DNA of 64,000 nucleotides from Candidatus Solibacter usitatus (lineage in GTDB: Bacteria > Acidobacteriota > Terriglobia > Bryobacterales > Bryobacteraceae). Below the pieces are notes generated by a model. The model had not been told where the DNA came from and ran no database searches. It saw only the letters and a list, made by a program, of their open reading frames with translations. This document shows positions 22,604 through 63,433 of the stretch, in pieces. The position numbers and the translations under genes are program-made. The stretch covers positions 1 through 64,000 of the forward strand of contig JACRBC010000056.1 of NCBI GenBank assembly GCA_016213245.1, in the 5' to 3' direction. The stretch's first letter is position 1, and each line of letters starts with the position of its first letter.

Positions 22604-23284
22604 ATGCCGGATGACCCGAAGCCAGAAGGCACTCCCAGCCCTGAGTCTGCGCCCTCACCCGAGGCGGCGCAGGCGCCCGTGACGCCGCCCGTTGCGGCGC
22701 CCGTTGCGGCGGCGAAGCCTCCCGCAGCAGCAGCCGCCAAGCCGCCCGCGCCGGCGGCTCCGAAGGCTCCGGCGGTGATGGCGTCGACGGCCTGGGAGAG
22801 CGACCTGGCTGAGGCGCTGTCGGCTGAGTTCGGCGGCGATGCGCCGGAGTGCCTGACCTACCTGGGGCAGCCGTTCCTGGTGGCGAAGCCGGAGTCAATC
22901 GTGCCGCTGATCCAGCATTTGCAGGACGCCCACGACTTCGACTACCTGGTGGACATCACGGCGGTGCACTGGCCGGAACGGGCAGAGCCGTTTGACGTGA
23001 TCTACGTCCTGTACAGCTTCAGCCGCAACGAGCGCATCCGCATCAAGATCAGGATCGCCGAGGGCTTCAAGCCGCTGACGGCGACGATGGTACATCCGAG
23101 CGCGGACTGGCTGGAGCGCGAGGTGTACGACATGTTCGGCATCGAATTCGACGAGCATCCGAACATGCGGCGGATCCTGCTGCCGGACGAGTGGGAAACC
23201 TTCCCGCTGCGGAAAGAGAACAGCATCCTCAAGATGGACCAGCGCTGGGTTCAGGAGAACCTGGGGATCGAAAGCGGACAATAG
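22604..23284 (+). CDS. nuoC: NADH-quinone oxidoreductase subunit C (cluster 1)
   Basis: This is the 30-kDa-type peripheral-arm subunit of complex I. The first roughly 65 residues are a low-complexity Pro/Ala/Lys extension not present in the cluster 2 copy. The conserved core follows, with [10 protein letters not shown] and the family signature [20 protein letters not shown], ending in a WETFPLRK segment. Length is 226 versus 162 for the second copy. It is the first gene of an operon with its own palindromic promoter, two bases before nuoD. Confidence 0.95.
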
Positions 23285-23286
23285 CG

Positions 23287-24396
23287 ATGGCGGAGACCTT
23301 TCTCGACTCGACCGAACTGGTGTTGAATATGGGGCCGCAGCACCCCTCCACGCACGGCGTGCTGCGGGTGATCGTGAAACTGGACGGCGAGAAGGTGTTG
23401 GGGACGGAGTGCGTGATCGGTTACCTGCACCGTGGGGTGGAGAAGATCGCCGAGAACCGCACGTACACGATGTTTGCCCCGTACGTGGACCGGATCGACT
23501 ACATTGCGGCCGTCTCCAACGGCCTGGGCTATTGCCTGGCGGTGGAGAAACTGCTGAACGTGGAGGCGCCGGCCAGAGCGCAGGCGATCCGGGTGATCCT
23601 GACGGAGCTGAACCGGATCGGCAGCCACCTGCTGTGGCTGGGCACCCACGCGCTGGACATCGGCGCCATCACGCCGCTGTTCTACTGCATGCGGGAACGC
23701 GAGTACACGCTGGACATCTTCGAGAAGTACTGCGGGGCGCGGCTGACGACGCACGCGTTTCGCATCGGCGGTCTGCAGTATGAGACCTACGAAGGCTTCG
23801 AGAAGGAATGCCTTGCGTTCTGCGACCTGTTCCTGCCGAAGGTGGACGAGTACGAGGAACTGCTCACCGGGAACCGGATCTGGCGGAAGCGGCTGATCGA
23901 CGTCGGGATTCTGAACGAAGCCGACTGCAAGGCGTTCGGGGTGACGGGGCCGATGCTGCGGGCGGCGGGGTGCAAGTGGGACATCCGCAAGGCGCTGCCG
24001 TATTGCGGCTACGAGAAGTACGATTTCGAGATTCCGACGCGGGAGAACGGCGACACCTACGACCGGTACATGGTGCGGATGCAGGAGATGCGGCAGAGCG
24101 CGCGCATCATCCGGCAGGCGGTGGAGGGACTGCCGGCCGGACCGATCACGGCCAAGGTGCCGAAGGTGATCAAGCCGCCGGTGGGCGAGGCATACGTCTC
24201 GATTGAAGCGCCGAAGGGCGAGTTGGGCTACTACATCGTGAGTGACGGCACGACGCAGCCCTACCGCTGCCGGGTGCGGCCGCCGTCGTTTGTGAACTTG
24301 CAGGCGCTGGACAAGATGGCGCGGGGTTCGCTTGTGGCGGACCTGGTGGCGATCATCGGGACCATCGACATCGTGCTGGGGGAGGTGGACCGCTAG
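23287..24396 (+). CDS. nuoD: NADH-quinone oxidoreductase subunit D (cluster 1)
   Basis: This is the 49-kDa subunit that forms part of the quinone site. The start at 23287 ([24 protein letters not shown]) follows nuoC by two bases; the longer track ORF from 23191 is not used. The motifs [37 protein letters not shown] and QEMRQSARI are all present. The protein has 369 residues and ends in [12 protein letters not shown], like its paralogue. A second nuoD lies in cluster 2. Confidence 0.96.
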
Positions 24397-24414
24397 AAAA
24401 GCGGGCCGAGCGAC

Positions 24415-24870
24415 ATGCGGACGATCCTGAGAAAGGTTTTCCTGGTTGATCTGCTGCAGGGGATGTGGGTAACGTTCCGGACGCAGCATCCGAAGAACAT
24501 CGTGACGGAGCAGTATCCGTTCGAGCGGCCAAAGATCGCCGAGCGGTACCGCGGCGCGCCGCGGCTGAACGTCAACCCGGAGAACGGGCAGACGCTGTGC
24601 ATCTCCTGCGACTTGTGCGCGCTGGCCTGCCCGGAGGCGCTGATCGTTGTGGGTTGGGAGCGGAATCCGGAAACCAAGCGCAAGGACCTGATCACGTTCA
24701 CCTTCGACACATCGCGCTGCATGTTCTGCGGGCTGTGCGAGGACGCCTGCCCGGTGGACGCCCTGGAACTGACGCAGGATTTTGAATTGGCGAGTTACTC
24801 GCGGGAAGGAGCGATCTTTGACAGGCAGATCCTGGAAGAAGGCATCCAGCCCAAGAAGTACGTGTTCTGA
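24415..24870 (+). CDS. nuoI: NADH-quinone oxidoreductase subunit I (two 4Fe-4S clusters)
   Basis: The 151-residue ferredoxin-like subunit carries clusters N6a and N6b, the last relay before N2. Two complete motifs are visible: CISCDLCALACP (Cys 62, 65, 68, 72) and CMFCGLCEDACP (Cys 102, 105, 108, 112). Length and order within the operon are normal. It is followed by a 66-bp gap containing two hairpins before nuoJ, the largest gap inside the cluster. Confidence 0.96.
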   Translation: MRTILRKVFLVDLLQGMWVTFRTQHPKNIVTEQYPFERPKIAERYRGAPRLNVNPENGQTLCISCDLCALACPEALIVVGWERNPETKRKDLITFTFDTSRCMFCGLCEDACPVDALELTQDFELASYSREGAIFDRQILEEGIQPKKYVF

Positions 24871-24872
24871 GT

Positions 24873-24926
24873 CCGCTCCTGCCGGTGGCGGGGAGCGGCT
24901 TCAACTGGAGCGGGTGTGCGCACCCG
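24873..24926. repeat. Two consecutive hairpins between nuoI and nuoJ
   Basis: CCGCTCC/GGAGCGG (24873-24898, seven-base arms, 12-base loop) is followed by CGGGTG-TGCG-CACCCG (24911-24926). There is no T run. They could mark an RNA processing site or stabiliser separating the nuoCDI part of the transcript from the membrane-arm part. Confidence 0.65.
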
Positions 24927-24936
24927 GAGCGTGGAC

Positions 24937-25443
<507 letters not shown>

Positions 25444-25445
25444 CG

Positions 25446-25757
25446 ATGCTCCACCCCATCACGACCGAACATTACCTGGTGCTGAGCGCGGCGCTGCTGC
25501 TGATCGGCACGGTGGGCATCCTGATGCGGCGGAACGCGGTGGTCATCCTGATGTCGCTGGAGCTGATCCTGAACGCGGTGAACCTGAACCTGGTGGCGTT
25601 TGGAAAACACCATGGGAACGCGGACGGGCAGATCTTCGCCATCTTCATCATCACGGTGGCGGTTGCGGAAGCCGCGGTGGGCCTCGGCATTCTGATCGCG
25701 TTGTTCAGGAACAAGGAAACGGTGCTGGTCGATGAAATCGACCTGCTGAAGTGGTAG
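25446..25757 (+). CDS. nuoK: NADH-quinone oxidoreductase subunit K
   Basis: The 103-residue subunit starts at 25446, inside a longer track ORF that begins in another gene's shadow. Three transmembrane spans are visible. SLELILNAVNLNLV holds the conserved membrane glutamate of the second span, and FIITVAVAEAAVGLGILIAL the second glutamate in the third span. Both are part of the proton channel. Length is standard. Confidence 0.95.
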   Translation: MLHPITTEHYLVLSAALLLIGTVGILMRRNAVVILMSLELILNAVNLNLVAFGKHHGNADGQIFAIFIITVAVAEAAVGLGILIALFRNKETVLVDEIDLLKW

Positions 25758-25771
25758 GAGACAGCGGCGCG

Positions 25772-27814
25772 ATGAACTTTCTCGACCTCATCTGGCTGAT
25801 CCCGATCATCCCGCTGTGCGGCGCCGCGGTGATGCTGTTCTTCGGCCGGAGCCTCTCCAAGGCCGCCATCAGCATCATCAGCCCGGGAGCGGTGTTGGTC
25901 TCGTTCCTGCTGTCGGCCGGCGCCGTGATCCAGCTTGCCGGGCTCCGCGAGAGGCTGCACCAGGTGGTGCTGTTCCCGTGGCTGCCGCAACTGCGGGCGG
26001 ACATGGGCTACCTGCTGGATCCGCTGTCGAGCGTGATGATCCTGGTGGTGACGGGCATCGGGTTCCTGATCCACGTTTACGCCACCGGCTACATGGCGCA
26101 CGAGCACGGGCCCCGCCACGGCGGCTACTACCGGTTCTTCGGCTAACTGAACCTGTTCGTGTTCTTCATGCTGACGCTGGTGCTGGCCAACAACTACGCG
26201 CTGCTGTTTGTCGGCTGGGAGGGCGTGGGCCTCTGTTCGTACCTGCTGATCGGCTTCTACTTCCAGAAGAAGAGCGCCGGCGACGCCGGCAAGAAGGCGT
26301 TCATCGTCAACCGCATCGGCGACGCGGGGTTCATCCTGGGGATGTTCTTCCTGTTCCAGGTGACGGGCTCGCTGCGATTTACGGAAGTGAATGAGGCGCT
26401 GCGGTCTGCAAGATTCGCTCCCGAGGCTGGAGTGTTCGGCATTCTGAGCCTGACGGCGCTGCTGCTGTTCATCGGCGCGACGGGCAAGTCGGCGCAGATT
26501 CCGTTGCACGTCTGGCTGCCGGACGCCATGGAAGGCCCCACGCCGGTGAGCGCGCTGATCCACGCGGCCACGATGGTGACGGCCGGCGTCTACATGTGCG
26601 CGCGGTCCAACGCGTTGTTCGCGCTGACGCCGGAGACGTCGCACATCGTGGCGGCGGTGGGCGCGGCGACGGCCATCTTCGCCGCGTCGATCGGTCTGGT
26701 GCAGAACGACATTAAGCGCGTGCTGGCGTATTCGACGGTGTCGCAACTCGGCTACATGTTCCTGGCGGTGGGCGTGGGCGCCTACTGGGTGGGTGTGTTC
26801 CACCTGTACACGCACGCCTTCTTCAAGGCGCTGCTCTTCCTCGGCGCGGGATCGGTGATCCACGCCATGAGCGGTGAGCAGGACATGCGGAGGATGGGCG
26901 GGCTGAAGGACAAGATCCCGATCACGTTCGCCACGATGTTCATCGCCTCGCTGGCCATTGCGGGGATACCGGGGCTGGCGGGCTTCTTCTCGAAGGACGA
27001 GATCCTGTGGCAGTCGTGGTCGTCGCCGCTGGGCGGGAAACTGTTGTGGGCGGTGGGCTTCTGTACCGCGGCGATGACGGCGTTCTACATGTGGCGGCTG
27101 ATGTTCATGACGTTCTACGGCGAGGGCCGGATGGACGAACATACCAGGCACCATGTCCACGAATCGCCCAAGTCCATGACCGTGCCGCTGATGGTGCTGG
27201 CGGCGGGCAGCGTGTGCGCCGGCTGGATCGGGATGCCGAAGGTATTTGGCGAGAACGGCTTCATGCAGGCGCTGGAGCACTGGCTGGCGCCGGTGTTTGA
27301 AACGGGCAAGGAGGCGGCGCACGCGGCGGCCGGGCACGGCGCGGCGCAGCACGACACAACGATGGAATGGGTGCTGATGGGCGTGTCGGTCGGAGCGGCG
27401 CTGGCGGGCATCTTCCTGGCGCGGCACATCTACCTGCGCATGAAGGAATCGGAGCGGCCCACCGGCGGCGCGATGCACCCGGTGCTCTACAACAAGTGGT
27501 ACGTGGACGAGCTGTACGACTTTCTGTTCGTCAACGGGTTCTCGCTGGGCGGGGGCACGCTGATGGCGCGGTTCGACCAGAAGGTGGTGGACGGCGGGGT
27601 GAACGGTACGGCGTGGCTGACGCGGCTGGTCTCCAGCATCTCCATCTGGTATGACACGTGGATCGTCGACGGCCTGGTAAACCTGACGGCGTTCAGTGTC
27701 AGGGCGCTCTCCTATCCGGTCCGGTTCCTTCAGACCGGCTTCATCCAGTCCTACGCACTGGTCTTCCTCGCTGGCGTTTTCGCCATCTTCGGTTACTACT
27801 GGTGGGTCCGCTAG
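25772..27814 (+). pseudogene. nuoL: NADH-quinone oxidoreductase subunit L interrupted by one in-frame stop
   Basis: The reading frame begins at 25772 (MNFLDLIWLIPIIPL) and continues to 27814, apart from a single TAA at 26144-26146 (codon 125 of 680). The halves join without a frameshift: RFFG-[stop]-LNLFVFFM, where intact NuoL has a tyrosine (GYLNLF) encoded by TAC or TAT. Everything else is well preserved, including WEGVGLCSYLLIGFYF, KSAQIPLHVWLPDAMEGPTPVSALIHAATMV, the proton-channel lysines, and the C-terminal amphipathic helix region. NuoL is the distal proton-pumping antiporter-like subunit. Either this is a recent nonsense mutation, making cluster 1 assemble without L, or a sequencing error. 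A GTG at 26159 could restart translation but would lose the first 129 codons. Confidence 0.9.
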
Positions 27815-27829
27815 CGGAGGAACACGCAT

Positions 27830-29368
27830 ATGAACGACCACTTGCTCTCAGTCATCCTCTTCACTCCGCTGGCCGGACTGCTGGTGCTGATGTTCATCCC
27901 GGGCAGGCAGAAGACGCTGGTGCGGCTGTGGGCCAATATTTCGGCGGCGGCCGGCCTGCTGGTGTCGATTCCGATGATCGTGCAGTTCAACCGCAACGCC
28001 GAGGGTTACCAGTTCATGGAGCGCGTGGACTGGATTCCATCGCTGGGCGTGCAGTACCTGGTGGGTGTGGACGGCATCAGCGTGCTGATGGTGATGCTGA
28101 CCACCATCATGGGCTTCCTGGCGATCTTCTCGTCGTGGGACTCGGTGAAGGAGCGCGAAAAAGAGTACTACGCCATGTTCCTGCTGCAGCAGACGGGGAT
28201 GATCGGCGTCTTCATCTCGCTGGACTTCCTGCTGTTTTACATCTTCTGGGAGATGGTGCTGGTGCCGATGTACTTCATCATCGGCGTGTGGGGCGGCCCG
28301 CGCAAGCTCTATGCGGCCATCAAGTTCTTCCTGTACACGCTGGCCGGCGGCGTGCTGATGCTGCTGGGCATTCTGGCGCTGTACTTCCAGCACAACGCGC
28401 AGTTCGGACGCTACACGTTTGAGATCGCTGAACTGATGAAGCTGAATCTGCCGCTGGGCCTGCAGCAGTGGGTGTTCTGGTCGTTCTTCCTGGGCTTTGC
28501 CATCAAGGTGCCGATGTTCCCGTTCCACACCTGGCTGCCGGACGCGCATACAGAGGCGCCCACGGCCGGATCGGTGATTCTGGCGGCGGTGCTGCTGAAG
28601 ATGGGCACCTACGGCTTCATCCGCTTCTCGCTGCCGCTGCTGCCGGGCGCCAGCGCCGACAGGACCATCGTCACGGTGCTGGCGGTGCTGTCGATCATCG
28701 GCATTCTGTACGGGGCGCTGGTGAGCCTGATGCAGCAGGACTGGAAGAAGCTGGTGGCCTACTCTTCGGTGAGCCACCTGGGCTTCTGCACACTGGGGAT
28801 CTTCGCTCTGAACCAGGCGGGGATCACCGGCTCGGTGATCCAGCAGATCAACCACGGCATCAGCACCGGCATGCTGTTCCTGGTGGTGGGTGTCATCTAC
28901 GAGCGGAGGCACACGCGCGAGATCAAGGAGTACGGCGGACTGGCGCACGTCATGCCGAACTACGCCATCGTCTTCGCCATCGCCATGCTGTCGAGTGCCG
29001 GGCTGCCGCTGCTGAACGGTTTTGTCGGTGAGTTCACGATCCTGCAGGGCGCCTTTGACGCCAACAAGACATGGGCGGCATTCGCCGTGCTGGGCGTGAT
29101 CTTCGGCGCAGCCTACCTGTTGTGGCTCTACCAGCGCACGATGCTGGGCGAAGTGACGAACGAGAAGAACAAGGGGCTACCGGACCTGAACTGGCGGGAG
29201 TGGGCGGTGTTCGTGCCTCTGATCCTGTGGGCGGTTTCGATCGGCGTCTACCCCAAACCCTACTTCGACATTCTTGAAAAGCCGGTGGCGCAGATCGTTC
29301 GCCGCGTCCACCAGACTCCGAGCGCCGTCGCCGCCGTGCCGGTGAAAGCGGAGGCTGTCACCCGATGA
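27830..29368 (+). CDS. nuoM: NADH-quinone oxidoreductase subunit M
   Basis: The 512-residue antiporter-like membrane subunit has about 14 spans. DGISVLMVMLTTIMGF, FWEMVLVPMYFIIG (the conserved glutamate of TM5), FAIKVPMFPFHTWLPDAHTEAPTAGSV (split in the sequence, key lysine) and YSSVSHLGFC are visible. It starts 15 bp after nuoL and overlaps nuoN by four bases (ATGA), so the two are translationally coupled. No interruption is seen. Confidence 0.95.
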   Translation: MNDHLLSVILFTPLAGLLVLMFIPGRQKTLVRLWANISAAAGLLVSIPMIVQFNRNAEGYQFMERVDWIPSLGVQYLVGVDGISVLMVMLTTIMGFLAIFSSWDSVKEREKEYYAMFLLQQTGMIGVFISLDFLLFYIFWEMVLVPMYFIIGVWGGPRKLYAAIKFFLYTLAGGVLMLLGILALYFQHNAQFGRYTFEIAELMKLNLPLGLQQWVFWSFFLGFAIKVPMFPFHTWLPDAHTEAPTAGSVILAAVLLKMGTYGFIRFSLPLLPGASADRTIVTVLAVLSIIGILYGALVSLMQQDWKKLVAYSSVSHLGFCTLGIFALNQAGITGSVIQQINHGISTGMLFLVVGVIYERRHTREIKEYGGLAHVMPNYAIVFAIAMLSSAGLPLLNGFVGEFTILQGAFDANKTWAAFAVLGVIFGAAYLLWLYQRTMLGEVTNEKNKGLPDLNWREWAVFVPLILWAVSIGVYPKPYFDILEKPVAQIVRRVHQTPSAVAAVPVKAEAVTR

Positions 29369-30834
29369 ACATCTACTACACCTCCACCGACCATTTCGTG
29401 CTGCTGCCCGCCATTCTGCTGGCGCTGTTCGGGTGCGCGACTCTGCTGTTCGATTTCTGGGTTTTTCCCGATCCGCGGCAGCGCCGCTGGCTGCTGCTCT
29501 TCCTGGTGCTGGGGGAGGCCTTCGCCGGGGTGGCGTTCTGGCGCCAGCAGGACTTCCTCAATACGCATGGGGGGGAGTTGGTGGCCTTCAACGGCGTACT
29601 CACGGTGGACCATTACGGACTCTTCTTCCAGTGGATCTTCCTGGCCACGACCGTGATCGTCGGGCTGATCTCGTATAAGTACCTGGAGGTGCGCGAAGAG
29701 CACCACGGCGAGTATTACGGCCTGTTGATGCTGGCCCAATGCGGGATGTTCTTCCTCGCCAGCGGCACGGAACTGGTGACGATCTTCGTCGGCCTGGAAA
29801 CGATGGCCGTCACGTTCTACATTCTGGTGGGCTTTCTGCGCGCGGACAAGCGCAGCAATGAGGCGGCGCTGAAGTACCTGCTGCTGGGCGGACTGTCCTC
29901 GGGTTTCCTGGCCTACGGTTTCTCAGTGCTCTATGGGATTGCGGGCTCCACGAAGCTGCGCGACATCTCGGCGGCGGTGGCGGCGCGCGACGCCTGGGAT
30001 CCGATTCTGCTGCTGGCCATCGCCACGACGGCGGTGGGCCTGCTGTTCAAGATCTCGGCGGCGCCGTTCCACATGTGGGCGCCGGACGCCTACGAGGGCG
30101 CCCCGACGTCGATTACCGCGTTCCTGGCGGTGGGTTCCAAGGCGGCGTCGTTCGCCCTGCTGATGCGGCTGTTCTTCGGACCGCTGAGCCCGGCGCGTGA
30201 GTCGTGGGTTCCGCTGATGATCGCGGCGGCCATCCTGTCGATGATCATCGGCAACTTCGCGGCGGTGACGCAGACCAATACGAAGCGGCTGCTGGCCTAC
30301 AGCGGAATCAACCACGCCGGCTACATCCTGCTGGGGCTCATCGCGGGGAATCCCACCGGCCTCAAGGGCATGCTGGTGTACCTGTTGATCTACACCTTCA
30401 TGACCCTGGGGGCGTTCCTGGTGCTGACGGTTCTGACGCGCAAAGGCCTGGCGGGAGAAGATATCAACGACCTGAACGGCCTGATGCAGCGCGCGCCGGG
30501 ATACGCCATCTGGATGCTGATCTTCCTGGTCTCGCTGGCCGGCATTCCGCCCACGGGCGGCTTCTTTGGCAAGTACTTCATCTTCCTGGCGCTGCTGGAA
30601 ACCGGGCACACCACGCTGGCGATCATCGCGGCGCTGTTCGTGGCCGTGTCGGTCTACTACTACTTCCGCATGATCAAGGCCATCTTCGTCCAAAAGGAGG
30701 AGCAGGAGACGCCGCCGCTGGCCACCAGTCTGGGCGTGCGGCTGGCGCTGGGCGTCACCGGCGTGCTGACGCTGCTGATCGGCGTCTACCCCGAACCGTT
30801 CCTGCGCCTGGCGCAGATGAGCATCTCCCGCTAA
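29365..30834 (+). CDS. nuoN: NADH-quinone oxidoreductase subunit N
   Basis: The 489-residue subunit is the third antiporter-like module of the membrane arm. Conserved features include FVGLETMAVTFYILVGF (the TM5 glutamate), FKISAAPFHMWAPDAYEGAPT and YSGINHAGYILLG, with further lysines in later spans. Length is normal. It is coupled to nuoM and followed nine bases later by nuoH. Confidence 0.95.
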   Translation: MNIYYTSTDHFVLLPAILLALFGCATLLFDFWVFPDPRQRRWLLLFLVLGEAFAGVAFWRQQDFLNTHGGELVAFNGVLTVDHYGLFFQWIFLATTVIVGLISYKYLEVREEHHGEYYGLLMLAQCGMFFLASGTELVTIFVGLETMAVTFYILVGFLRADKRSNEAALKYLLLGGLSSGFLAYGFSVLYGIAGSTKLRDISAAVAARDAWDPILLLAIATTAVGLLFKISAAPFHMWAPDAYEGAPTSITAFLAVGSKAASFALLMRLFFGPLSPARESWVPLMIAAAILSMIIGNFAAVTQTNTKRLLAYSGINHAGYILLGLIAGNPTGLKGMLVYLLIYTFMTLGAFLVLTVLTRKGLAGEDINDLNGLMQRAPGYAIWMLIFLVSLAGIPPTGGFFGKYFIFLALLETGHTTLAIIAALFVAVSVYYYFRMIKAIFVQKEEQETPPLATSLGVRLALGVTGVLTLLIGVYPEPFLRLAQMSISR

Positions 30835-30843
30835 GAGGCACGC

Positions 30844-32028
30844 ATGGCGATGGAAAACATCCTCTCCCAACCCTGGTTCATCCCGCTGGTCACCGGCCTG
30901 CTGATCATCGCCGTGGCCCCTCTGGCCGTCGCCTTCACCGTGCTGCTGGAGCGCAAGGTGCTGGCCGACATGCAGGCCCGCCTGGGCCCGATGCGGGTGG
31001 GGCCGCAGGGGCTTCTGCAGACCATCGCCGACGCGGTGAAGCTGCTGACCAAGGAAGACATCATCCCCACGGACTCCAACCGGTGGCTGTTCCGCACGGC
31101 GCCGGTGATCTCGTTCTTCACGGCCTGCACTTGCCTGACCGTGGTGCCCTTTTCCGACACCATCAAGGTGACCGACGTGAACGTCGGCCTGCTGGTGATC
31201 TCGGCGATGTCGGCCGTGGGCATTCTGGGCATCATCCTGGGCGGCTGGTCGTCCAACTCGCACTACTCGCTGCTGGGCGGCCTGCGCTCGGCGGCGCAAC
31301 TGGTCAGCTATGAAGTGGCGCTGGGGCTCGCGCTGATCTCCGGCGTGATGTGCGCCGGCACGCTGTCGATGAGCGGCATCGTGCACGCGCAGGCCCAGCA
31401 CGGCGTGTGGTTCGCCTTCGACAACTACGGCCTGATGCTGATCCCCACGATGGTCTACCTGGTCAGTTGCGTGGCCGAGACCAACCGCGCGCCGTTCGAC
31501 CTGCCGGAGGCCGAATCCGAGCTGGTGGCGGGGTTTCACACCGAGTTCAGCGGATTCCGCTGGGGCGTCTACATGTTGTCGGAGTACGTGAACATGTTCG
31601 CCGTGGGCAGCGTGCTGGTGACGCTGTTCTGGGGCGGCTGGCTGAGGCCGTTCCCAAGCGTCGGGTGGCTGGCCGTGCCGATGAATTATGGCATGCCGCT
31701 GGTGGTCTTCGGCGGCACGGGCCTGGCTTGCCTGTACCTGTCGCGCCGGCAGCCGATCCGCGGCTATGCCGTGGGTATTGCGGCTCTGGGCGTTGCGTTC
31801 CTCGGCATTGCGGGACTCTTCATGATTCCGGCCGTGAACGTGCCGTCGGCCCCGGTGTTCTGGTGGGCGCTGAAGCTGTTCCTGGTGCTCTACCTGTTCA
31901 TCTGGCTGCGCGGGACGTTCCCACGCTACCGCTACGACCAGCTCATGAATATCGGCTGGAAGGTGATGATCCCCACCGGGCTGGGCGCCATCTTCGTCAA
32001 CGCCGTGGTGGGCATGGCCCGGCGTTAG
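30844..32028 (+). CDS. nuoH: NADH-quinone oxidoreductase subunit H
   Basis: NuoH anchors the peripheral arm and lines the quinone cavity. The 394-residue protein shows ERKVLADMQARLGPMRVGP, the amphipathic cavity helix TIADAVKLLTKEDI, and the long acidic loop AETNRAPFDLPEAESELVAGFHTEFSG. Placing nuoH last in the operon, after nuoN, differs from the common A-to-N order. The stop overlaps the convergent DinB/YfiT-like gene by four bases. Confidence 0.95.
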   Translation: MAMENILSQPWFIPLVTGLLIIAVAPLAVAFTVLLERKVLADMQARLGPMRVGPQGLLQTIADAVKLLTKEDIIPTDSNRWLFRTAPVISFFTACTCLTVVPFSDTIKVTDVNVGLLVISAMSAVGILGIILGGWSSNSHYSLLGGLRSAAQLVSYEVALGLALISGVMCAGTLSMSGIVHAQAQHGVWFAFDNYGLMLIPTMVYLVSCVAETNRAPFDLPEAESELVAGFHTEFSGFRWGVYMLSEYVNMFAVGSVLVTLFWGGWLRPFPSVGWLAVPMNYGMPLVVFGGTGLACLYLSRRQPIRGYAVGIAALGVAFLGIAGLFMIPAVNVPSAPVFWWALKLFLVLYLFIWLRGTFPRYRYDQLMNIGWKVMIPTGLGAIFVNAVVGMARR

Positions 32029-59125: not shown

Positions 59126-59353
59126 CTATCCGCCGCCGACGAACGTCACGATCTCCACAGTCGCTCCATCCCGCACCTCCGTCGACTCCCACGAGTCCTT
59201 GCGGACAATCTCGCGGTTCAGTTCCACGGCCACCCTCGCCGGGTCGAGCCCCGCCTGAACAAGCAGTTCTCTGACGTTCAGCCCCGGCGGGACCCCCAGG
59301 GTCTCCCCGTTGATGCGAATGGAGATATGTGGATCGGCCGGTTGGTTTGACAC
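59126..59353 (-). CDS. Sulfur carrier protein ThiS-like (MoaD/ThiS family)
   Basis: The GTG at 59353 gives a 75-residue beta-grasp protein that begins near ISIRINGETLGVP and ends VTFVGGG. The C-terminal Gly-Gly is the thiocarboxylation site of ThiS and related carriers. The longer ATG frame at 59425 would extend upstream of the -10 box and is unlikely. The thiazole partners (thiG, thiF) are not adjacent, so a role in another sulfur transfer pathway is possible. A TATAAT on the minus strand stands about 16 bp before the GTG and overlaps the nuoA promoter. Confidence 0.82.
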   Translation of the reverse strand: MSNQPADPHISIRINGETLGVPPGLNVRELLVQAGLDPARVAVELNREIVRKDSWESTEVRDGATVEIVTFVGGG

Positions 59354-59376
59354 GCTCTTCTGAGCCTCATTATAGT
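59347..59376 (+). promoter_or_regulatory. Promoter of complex I cluster 2 (nuoA), overlapping the divergent thiS promoter
   Basis: A perfect -35 TTGACA (59347-59352) is followed 18 bp later by TATAGT (59371-59376). On the opposite strand a perfect TATAAT occupies 59374-59369 and can serve thiS, though its -35 is weak. The two -10 elements therefore overlap, and the nuoA -35 overlaps the thiS start codon. Polymerase binding for one gene should exclude the other. Confidence 0.65.
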
Positions 59377-59412
59377 GAAGAGTTCGAGCCTCGGCTGACC
59401 GGTCGCGTACAC

Positions 59413-59808
59413 ATGCCCACAACATCCATCGAAATCTACTTCCCCGTCCTGGTGCAGGCGTTGCTGGGCCTGGGGCTGGCGGCCCTGCTGGTCTCGCTCG
59501 GCTTCCTTCTGGGGAAACGAGTCAAGAATCGGGTCAAGGAGATGCCCTACGAGTGCGGCATCACCCCGGTGGGCAGCGCCAAGGATCGGCTCAGCGTCAA
59601 GTTCTACCTCGTCGCCATGCTCTTCATCCTGTTCGACATCGAAGCGATCTTCCTCTATCCCTGGGCCGTGGTCTATCGAGAGTTGAAGCTGTTCGCCTTC
59701 TTCGAGATGCTCCTCTTCATCGCCCTGGTCCTGGCGGGCTTTTTCTACATCTGGAAGAAGGGCGTGCTGAACTGGGCTGAAGAGAACGACGAGGAAAGTG
59801 CGGGCTAG
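59413..59808 (+). CDS. nuoA: NADH-quinone oxidoreductase subunit A
   Basis: The 131-residue subunit starts at 59413 (MPTTSIEIYFPVLVQ). Three membrane spans are visible. The loop between the first two carries the conserved YECGITPVGSAKDR, ending in LFDIEAIFLYPWAV, which contributes the quinone-cavity acidic residues. It leads cluster 2 and is followed directly by nuoC at 11 bp, where nuoB usually stands. Confidence 0.95.
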   Translation: MPTTSIEIYFPVLVQALLGLGLAALLVSLGFLLGKRVKNRVKEMPYECGITPVGSAKDRLSVKFYLVAMLFILFDIEAIFLYPWAVVYRELKLFAFFEMLLFIALVLAGFFYIWKKGVLNWAEENDEESAG

Positions 59809-59819
59809 GGGGCCCATCC

Positions 59820-60308
59820 ATGCTGCCCGACAATCTGAAAGAGATGACCGTGCCCGCCGCCCTGGAACTATGGGACGCCGGGGCGTTGACCGGAGGCGGC
59901 CGCGACTTTGGCGAGACGCTCTTGTGGGTTCGCCGGGATAGGATCGCGGACGTCTGCCGCCATCTGAAGGAGAAGTTCCAATTCGTACGGCTGAGCGGTT
60001 TGACCTGCATCGACAGGCACCCGGCCGAGCCGCGCTTCGAGGTTCTCTACCTGCTCCACTCCATCGAACGAAATGAACGGCTCAAGCTGAAGGTCGCGCT
60101 CACAGGCGCGCAGCCCGAAGTCGACAGCGTCACCCCGGTCTGGGCGGGCGCCAACTGGTACGAACGGGAGGCGTTCGATCTCTTCGGCGTGCGCTTTCTG
60201 GGCCACCCGGATCTGAAGCGCATCATGATGCCCGCCGATTGGGAAGGCCACCCGCTGCGCAAGGATTTTCCGATCCACGGCCACAAGTACAGCTATCAGA
60301 ACGGCTAG
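59820..60308 (+). CDS. nuoC: NADH-quinone oxidoreductase subunit C (cluster 2)
   Basis: The 162-residue subunit has the core family signature EREAFDLFGVRFLGHPDLKR and a preceding EVLYLLHSI strand. It lacks the 65-residue Pro/Ala extension of the cluster 1 copy. The two NuoC proteins are clearly diverged, so the duplication is old or one came by transfer. It starts 11 bp after nuoA and ends 31 bp before nuoD. Confidence 0.94.
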   Translation: MLPDNLKEMTVPAALELWDAGALTGGGRDFGETLLWVRRDRIADVCRHLKEKFQFVRLSGLTCIDRHPAEPRFEVLYLLHSIERNERLKLKVALTGAQPEVDSVTPVWAGANWYEREAFDLFGVRFLGHPDLKRIMMPADWEGHPLRKDFPIHGHKYSYQNG

Positions 60309-60339
60309 GAACACCGGGAGCCGCGAGCAAAAGGCAGTC

Positions 60340-61575
60340 ATGAGCCAGATAGAAGCAAACGCAACCTCCGCGGCCGCTGAGCCCGCCCAGGACGGCAAAC
60401 TCCCGGGCGGCCGCCGCCGCATGGCCCTCAACATGGGCCCGCAGCACCCCTCGACCCACGGCGTGTTGCGCATCATGCTGGAACTCGACGGAGAGATCGT
60501 CACCAGCGCCGAGCCGGACATCGGCTTCCTTCATACCGGCATTGAAAAGCAGGCTGAAACGCTGAACTGGCAGCAGGTGGTCACGCTCACCGACCGCATG
60601 GACTATCTCAGCAACCTGGCCAACAACCTGGCCTACGTCCTGCCCGTGGAGAAGCTCCTCGGCGTCGAGGTTCCGCCCAAGGCGCAGTGGCTGCGCGTGA
60701 TGCTCACCGAACTGTCGCGCATCAACAGCCACGCCGTTTGGCTGGGCACCCACGCCATGGACCTCGGCGCCATGACGGTGTACTTTTACTGCTTCCGCGA
60801 GCGGGAGGACATCCTGCGGATCTGTGAGATGTTCAGCGGCCAGCGCATGATGACCAGCTACATCCGCATCGGCGGAGTCGCCCTGGAGCCCCCGCGCGGC
60901 TGGGAAAAGACCGTGAGGGAATTCCTCAATGGTCTGTCCGCCAAGATCGACGAGTACGAGAACCTGCTCAACTCCAATCCGATCTTCCTGCAACGTGCCA
61001 GGGGCGTGGGCCGGCTCAGCCTCGAACGCCTGCTCGATCTCGGTGTCACCGGGCCCATGATCCGGGCCGCCGGCCTGAATTGGGATATCCGCAAGTCGGA
61101 GCCCTATTCGAGCTACGACAAGTTCGATTTCGACATTCCCGTCTACTCCGAAGGCGACGTCTTCGCCCGCTTCCGCGTTCGTCTCGAAGAGATGCGCCAG
61201 AGCGCCCGCATCGTGGAACAGGCGCTGAACGGCATGCCGGAGGGCCCCTGGAAGGCCGACGCCCCCCAGGTGGTCCTGCCCGACCGCGAGAAAATGAAGA
61301 CGCAGATGGAGGCGTTGATCTATCACTTCAAGATCGTCACCGAGGGCTTCCGTGTCCCCGCCGGTGAGGCCTACGTGCCCGTGGAGTCGCCCCGCGGCGA
61401 GATCGGATTCTACGTCGTGAGCGACGGCACCTCGAAGCCCTACCGTGTCTTCATGCGCACACCGAGCTACGGCAACCTGCAGTGCTTACCCGCCCTGTTC
61501 GAGGGCAAACTCATCGCCGACAGTGTCGCTGCCCTCGGCAGCATGGATTTTGTGCTCGGTGACATCGACAGGTAG
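60340..61575 (+). CDS. nuoD: NADH-quinone oxidoreductase subunit D (cluster 2)
   Basis: The 411-residue subunit contains [53 protein letters not shown] and [13 protein letters not shown]. It ends in DFVLGDIDR. Against the cluster 1 NuoD it has an N-terminal extension of about 30 residues and some extra loop length, so they are not recent copies. It belongs to the A-C-D-E-F-G operon. Confidence 0.96.
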   Translation: MSQIEANATSAAAEPAQDGKLPGGRRRMALNMGPQHPSTHGVLRIMLELDGEIVTSAEPDIGFLHTGIEKQAETLNWQQVVTLTDRMDYLSNLANNLAYVLPVEKLLGVEVPPKAQWLRVMLTELSRINSHAVWLGTHAMDLGAMTVYFYCFREREDILRICEMFSGQRMMTSYIRIGGVALEPPRGWEKTVREFLNGLSAKIDEYENLLNSNPIFLQRARGVGRLSLERLLDLGVTGPMIRAAGLNWDIRKSEPYSSYDKFDFDIPVYSEGDVFARFRVRLEEMRQSARIVEQALNGMPEGPWKADAPQVVLPDREKMKTQMEALIYHFKIVTEGFRVPAGEAYVPVESPRGEIGFYVVSDGTSKPYRVFMRTPSYGNLQCLPALFEGKLIADSVAALGSMDFVLGDIDR

Positions 61576-61605
61576 AATGCGCGCCGGACTGGAAATGAAA
61601 CTGCC

Positions 61606-62088
61606 ATGACCTTCTCACCCGAACTCGAGGCGAAGTTCGAAAAAATGATCGCCAACTACCCGCCCGGGCGGCAGAAGGGCGCGCTGATCCCCATGCTGCT
61701 GTTCGCCCAGGACGAGATCGGCTCCGTCACCCCCGAGCTCGTTCAGGAAGTCGCCGCGCGCCTCAAGGTGAAGCCCGTCGAGGTGGAGGAGGTGCTGGGC
61801 TACTACACCATGCTCACCCGCGAGCCGCGCGGCAGACACCACATCCAGATCTGCACCAACATCAGTTGCATGTTGACCGGCGGCGAGGAACTCTTCGCTC
61901 ACGCTTCCAGAAAGCTCGGCATCGGCCACCGGCAGAAAACCGCCGACGGCCAGTTCTCGCTCGAAGAGGTCGAGTGCCTCGGCGCCTGCTCCTGGGCCCC
62001 CGCGCTGCTGGTGAACTATGACTTTCACTTCAACATCACCCCCGGGAAGCTGGACCGCCTGATCGACAGCCTGAGGAAGATGCAGTGA
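61606..62088 (+). CDS. nuoE: NADH-quinone oxidoreductase subunit E
   Basis: The 160-residue 24-kDa-type subunit holds the [2Fe-2S] cluster N1a. Cysteines are in CTNISCMLTGG and in VECLGACSWAPALLVN, matching the C-x4-C ... C-x3-C pattern. The preceding helical part fits the thioredoxin-like family. It is followed by nuoF 22 bp later, together forming the NADH-oxidising module with nuoG. Confidence 0.95.
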   Translation: MTFSPELEAKFEKMIANYPPGRQKGALIPMLLFAQDEIGSVTPELVQEVAARLKVKPVEVEEVLGYYTMLTREPRGRHHIQICTNISCMLTGGEELFAHASRKLGIGHRQKTADGQFSLEEVECLGACSWAPALLVNYDFHFNITPGKLDRLIDSLRKMQ

Positions 62089-62110
62089 CGGTCACCCATA
62101 GGAAACGCGA

Positions 62111-63433
62111 ATGCTTCTGAACGAGCCCCACCCGCTGGAAGTCAGAGTTCTCACGCGGCGCTACGTCTATCCCCAGTCCGAGCCCATCGGCCTGGATCAG
62201 TACGTTGAGCAGGAAGGTTATGACGGGCTGCGCAAGGCTTTGGCCATGCAGCCCGAGGCGATCATCGACGAGGTGAAGAGGTCCTCGCTGCGCGGTCGCG
62301 GCGGCGCCGGATTCCCCACCGGCATGAAGTGGAGCTTTGTGGACCGCAAGTCGCCCAAGCCCAAGTACATCGTCGTCAACGCCGACGAAGGCGAGCCCGG
62401 CACCTGCAAGGACCGCGTCATCATGGAGAACGAGCCCCACCGGCTCATCGAGGGCTGCCTCATCGCTGGCCGCGCCATCGGCTCCAATCGCGGCTGGATC
62501 TACATCCGCGGCGAGTACCGGCAGTATATCGACTGCATGGATCGCGCCATCAAAGACGCCTACGCTCGCGGCTATCTCGGCGAGAATGTCCTCGGCTCGG
62601 GCTGGTCGTTCCACCTCTCGACACACTCCGGCGCCGGTTCCTACGAGTGCGGCGAGGAGACCGCGCTCCTCGAGTCGCTGGAAGGCAAGCGCGGCAATCC
62701 GCGCCTCAAACCACCCTTCCCCGCCGTCTCCGGCGCCTTCCAGTGCCCCACCGTCGTCAATAACGTCGAGACCTACGCCGCCGTCCCCGACATCATCCTG
62801 AAGGGGGGTGAATGGTATGCCGCCCTCGGTACGCCCCGCAACGGCGGCACGCGCCTGGTCTGCCTCTCCGGCCACCTCAACCGGCCCGGCGTCTACGAAG
62901 TCCCGCTCGGCATGAACCTGCTGACGCTGGTCAACGAGATCGGCGGCGGTGTCTGGAAGGGCCGCAAGCTCAAGGCGATCATCCCGGGTGGAAGCTCCAG
63001 CCCCGTCTTGCGCGCCGAAGAGTGCGATATCCCGGCCGACTACGACAGCTTCGCCAAGGCAGGCACCATGCTCGGCTCCGGCGCCACCGTCGTTCTCGAC
63101 GAAACGGCCGACATGGTAAAGGTCCTCTCACGCCTCATGAAGTTCTACGCCCACGAAAGCTGCGGCTGGTGCATCCCCTGCCGCGAAGGCACCGCCTGGC
63201 TCAGGACGATCATGGCGCGGCTCGACGCCGGCGTCGGAACCAGGAACGATATCGACATGGTGGACCAGTTGGCTCAGGGCATGCTCGGGCGCACCTTCTG
63301 CCCGCTCGGCGACGCCGCCGCCATGCCCGCCACCGCCATCGTGCGCAAGTTCCGGGACGAGTTCGAGGCCAAAATCGCCTCCTCCCAGGTGTTCATGCCC
63401 GCGCCGCATACTCAGCCCCTGGTGGTCCTGTAG
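62111..63433 (+). CDS. nuoF: NADH-quinone oxidoreductase subunit F
   Basis: The 440-residue 51-kDa subunit binds FMN and NADH and cluster N3. The signatures are GRGGAGFPTGMKWSF and NADEGEPGTCKDR (FMN/NADH), and ESCGWCIPCREGTAWL with a later cysteine in TFCPLGDAAAMP for the 4Fe-4S cluster. Length and position between nuoE and nuoG are normal. Confidence 0.96.
   Translation: MLLNEPHPLEVRVLTRRYVYPQSEPIGLDQYVEQEGYDGLRKALAMQPEAIIDEVKRSSLRGRGGAGFPTGMKWSFVDRKSPKPKYIVVNADEGEPGTCKDRVIMENEPHRLIEGCLIAGRAIGSNRGWIYIRGEYRQYIDCMDRAIKDAYARGYLGENVLGSGWSFHLSTHSGAGSYECGEETALLESLEGKRGNPRLKPPFPAVSGAFQCPTVVNNVETYAAVPDIILKGGEWYAALGTPRNGGTRLVCLSGHLNRPGVYEVPLGMNLLTLVNEIGGGVWKGRKLKAIIPGGSSSPVLRAEECDIPADYDSFAKAGTMLGSGATVVLDETADMVKVLSRLMKFYAHESCGWCIPCREGTAWLRTIMARLDAGVGTRNDIDMVDQLAQGMLGRTFCPLGDAAAMPATAIVRKFRDEFEAKIASSQVFMPAPHTQPLVVL

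Follow-up and report, generated by a model that had tools for sequence, protein, structure and literature searches.

We identified a single in-frame TAA codon in an otherwise normal nuoL gene of Candidatus Solibacter usitatus, within the 64,000-nucleotide stretch of DNA analysed here (the window). On balance, we consider it probable that this codon is a consensus error or a minority-strain allele in a metagenome assembly, and not the majority base. The draft comprises 3.83 Mb in 153 contigs and is fragmented and 78.6% complete, figures from which we infer that it is a metagenome assembly. The window represents most of contig 15 (C15; 65,373 bases).

Position of the stop within nuoL

The TAA is located at 26144-26146 on the forward strand and corresponds to codon 125 of nuoL (window 26135-26158, TTC TTC GGC TAA CTG AAC CTG TTC). 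The nuoL frame, defined by its reading frame and by homology (25772..27814, forward strand), runs from an ATG at 25772 to a TAG at 27814 and comprises 680 codons, with codon 125 as its one internal stop. In the list of open reading frames, one frame ends with this stop at 26146, and the next continues in phase to 27814. According to Pfam, the 124 codons that precede the stop (25772..26143, forward strand) encode a Proton_antipo_N domain (PF00662, E 6e-18), and the 555 codons that follow it (26147..27811, forward strand) encode a Proton_antipo_M domain (PF00361, E 2e-87). Both domains lie in one frame, on either side of the stop, and the gene sits in a nuo operon with nuoK on one side and nuoM on the other. 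It shares with known NuoL, the distal antiporter-like subunit of complex I, its full domain content and its place in the nuoK-L-M-N order, and it is 87-96% identical in amino acids to its same-genus orthologues. It differs from them by the internal TAA, owing to which the frame is not open throughout.

Codon 125 in related genomes and constraint on nuoL

The residue at codon 125 is Tyr, sometimes Phe, in nearly all of the approximately 90 homologues compared, and rarely Trp or Asn. Candidatus Sulfopaludibacter and Bryobacterales MAGs are among the named relatives that a protein search retrieved, which points to an acidobacterium, and the cluster-1 nuoL is intact in related genomes. The codon is readable in seven same-genus genomes, each of which has TAC. 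No genome of the same species was found; the nearest, G002, shows about 85-93% DNA identity across the window, and its NuoL, 95.7% identical in amino acids, also has TAC at codon 125. The G002 protein aligns to the window over 692 residues without a gap, and the alignment crosses a single internal stop. The Tyr and TAC of the relatives together with this gapless alignment indicate a single C-to-A change and not a pair of frameshifts, and a compensated frameshift in place of a true stop is thereby ruled out. An earlier note, made from the DNA letters, had described a TAA at codon 125 with the same phase before and after it, at a position where Tyr is expected and one base change suffices; each of these points is borne out.

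Compared with G002, the 555 post-stop codons have a dS of 0.42 and a dN of 0.017, a ratio of 0.039. Ratios for the other cluster-1 genes measured are 0.03-0.10, with nuoC higher at 0.20. The post-stop part is thus under constraint similar to that on the neighbouring genes, and the stop is either recent or not real. When private changes in NuoL were polarised against four other same-genus genomes, seven amino-acid changes besides the stop were private to the window and five to G002. Without constraint, the 555 codons should have gathered about 265 changes on the window branch after it diverged from G002, versus the seven observed. These seven exclude an excess of more than about eight, which by our own estimate would confine any loss of function to roughly the last 3% of the branch. 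An old pseudogene is ruled out by the constraint on the post-stop sequence: neither the relaxed selection nor the additional damage of an established pseudogene follows the stop.

It is quite possible, though we put it below even chances, that the TAA is a real and very recent nonsense mutation. The product would then be a 124-residue NuoL fragment without Proton_antipo_M, and the cluster-1 complex I would not be completed. The lack of decay is consistent with a loss that recent, and the gene shares with recent nonsense pseudogenes a single nonsense change and the presence of another copy in the genome (see below). As the gene carries no further damage or raised amino-acid change, such a pseudogene would need to be very young. 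A single substitution with no other damage and no relaxed selection is also what nuoL shares with consensus errors and minority alleles in drafts.

Two complex I clusters and a second nuoL

The first complex I cluster, delimited from reading frames and homology, spans 22604..32028 on the forward strand and contains nuoC, D, I, J, K, L, M, N and H, without nuoA, B, E, F or G. Every gene in it besides nuoL is open. A second cluster begins with nuoA, C, D, E and F at 59329..63433 on the forward strand, close to the contig end at 65373; these five genes are all open in the window, with no nuoB between A and C. Both clusters are found within about 40 kb. Two further observations concern cluster 1. 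The dS of nuoC (22604-23284) against G002 is 0.10, far below that of the other nuo genes (0.26-0.54), and perhaps has its source in recombination. In the nuoM of G002 (L118, on G002 contig C379), about 29 codons are absent opposite window positions 28271-28355, without a frameshift, which reflects either a deletion or a collapse in the G002 assembly.

The second nuoL that the earlier note had suggested looking for outside the window exists. An intact nuoL (C66:428, 57% identity) stands at the start of contig C66, ahead of nuoM and nuoN. Four genomes (G001, G003, G005 and G006) carry both nuoL genes on a single contig, separated by about 46-51 kb. Judging from this spacing and from the gene order in the relatives, C66 probably continues the contig of the window, and with it cluster 2. 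More complex I-related genes are present elsewhere in the assembly, namely a separate nuoA where contig C64 ends and three matches to the nuoB family (contigs C21, C132 and C144).

These genes bear on both accounts of the stop. If the nonsense mutation were real, respiration would proceed through the second complex I and other dehydrogenases, and the open nuoL on C66 and the open A, C, D, E and F genes of cluster 2 favour this possibility. The second complex I could make a real loss of nuoL tolerable, at least temporarily, and to that extent counts against an error. However, relatives that also have two clusters keep their cluster-1 nuoL intact and under strong constraint, so that a second copy is normally no licence for loss. 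The remainder of the cluster-1 operon is likewise intact, and a fresh, probably harmful allele is improbable as the majority base in a natural population.

Background of in-frame stops and origin of the TAA

A scan for same-frame stops flanked by coding signal covered 47% of the assembly (1.79 Mb, with 464,818 coding codons) and recovered 67% of simulated stops. The matches were sorted by eye, and nearly all were neighbouring genes that start just past a stop, or short noncoding tails. The nuoL TAA had the highest coding score immediately past the stop of all same-frame stop junctions listed for the 1.79 Mb. Convincing interruptions were limited to nuoL and one transposase. The latter is an in-frame TAG in a DDE_3-type (IS630-like) transposase (L240:4282-4284, reverse strand), in the motif LPP*SLDLNPIEK, at a position that we take to be Tyr in the IS630 family.

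Random coding substitutions create stops in 2.9% of cases. With this yield, one or two stops in 464,818 codons imply a rate of wrong bases per site no higher than about 4-7e-5. Such a rate fits ordinary draft errors and a few recent mutations equally well. No published base-error rate for metagenome assemblies was found in the literature, and a study of complex I distribution (PMC12361115) is silent on this point. A generally low quality of the draft is unsupported, given one other clear interruption in the 1.79 Mb. That the draft is not error-ridden counts against an error at codon 125, and the few interruptions detected also fit a low rate of real pseudogenes.

We also considered whether UAA might specify an amino acid here, or translation restart just downstream, to give a functional NuoL; we regard this as very unlikely. 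The sequence is fully conserved on either side of the stop, and start codons are available nearby (GTG at 26159, ATG at 26168). However, TAA terminates 149 predicted genes in the 1.79 Mb (TAG 318, TGA 508) and is thus not reassigned, the sense codon found in relatives argues against a conserved recoding site, and a NuoL made from a restart would be without its N-terminal domain. No Shine-Dalgarno-like motif was found upstream of the ATG at 26168, and a tRNA search over 47% of the assembly revealed no UUA anticodon, which would read UAA. With TAA an ordinary terminator and no such tRNA seen in the part scanned, recoding is unsupported, and codon reassignment and a suppressor tRNA were rejected. 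Least probable of all is a real stop with useful levels of readthrough, perhaps from near-cognate Tyr decoding of UAA-C, such that a respiratory subunit is made through it. Neither readthrough nor restart is required to account for anything.

A wrong or minority base is slightly favoured over a real and recent nonsense allele, since relatives with a second cluster also keep their cluster-1 nuoL intact. In this otherwise normal and constrained gene, the one C-to-A substitution would have originated as a sequencing or assembly error, or through the choice of a minority strain's allele by the assembler. We infer that most cells do not carry the TAA, and full-length NuoL would then be made in most of them.

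The earlier note was right to offer an error, or a loss with redundancy, as the alternatives. The biological importance that it implied is not sustained: no decay, relaxed selection or recoding was seen, and the background of stops in the draft is that of ordinary base errors or rare recent mutations. Under either reading, the lone nuoL stop is an ordinary object. Automated gene calling would yield two genes in place of nuoL, and the cluster-1 complex I might be listed as broken; beyond annotation, the importance of the stop is small. A real stop would mean that this lineage has recently lost one of its two complex I clusters, which is nothing unusual and would leave it with another complex I.
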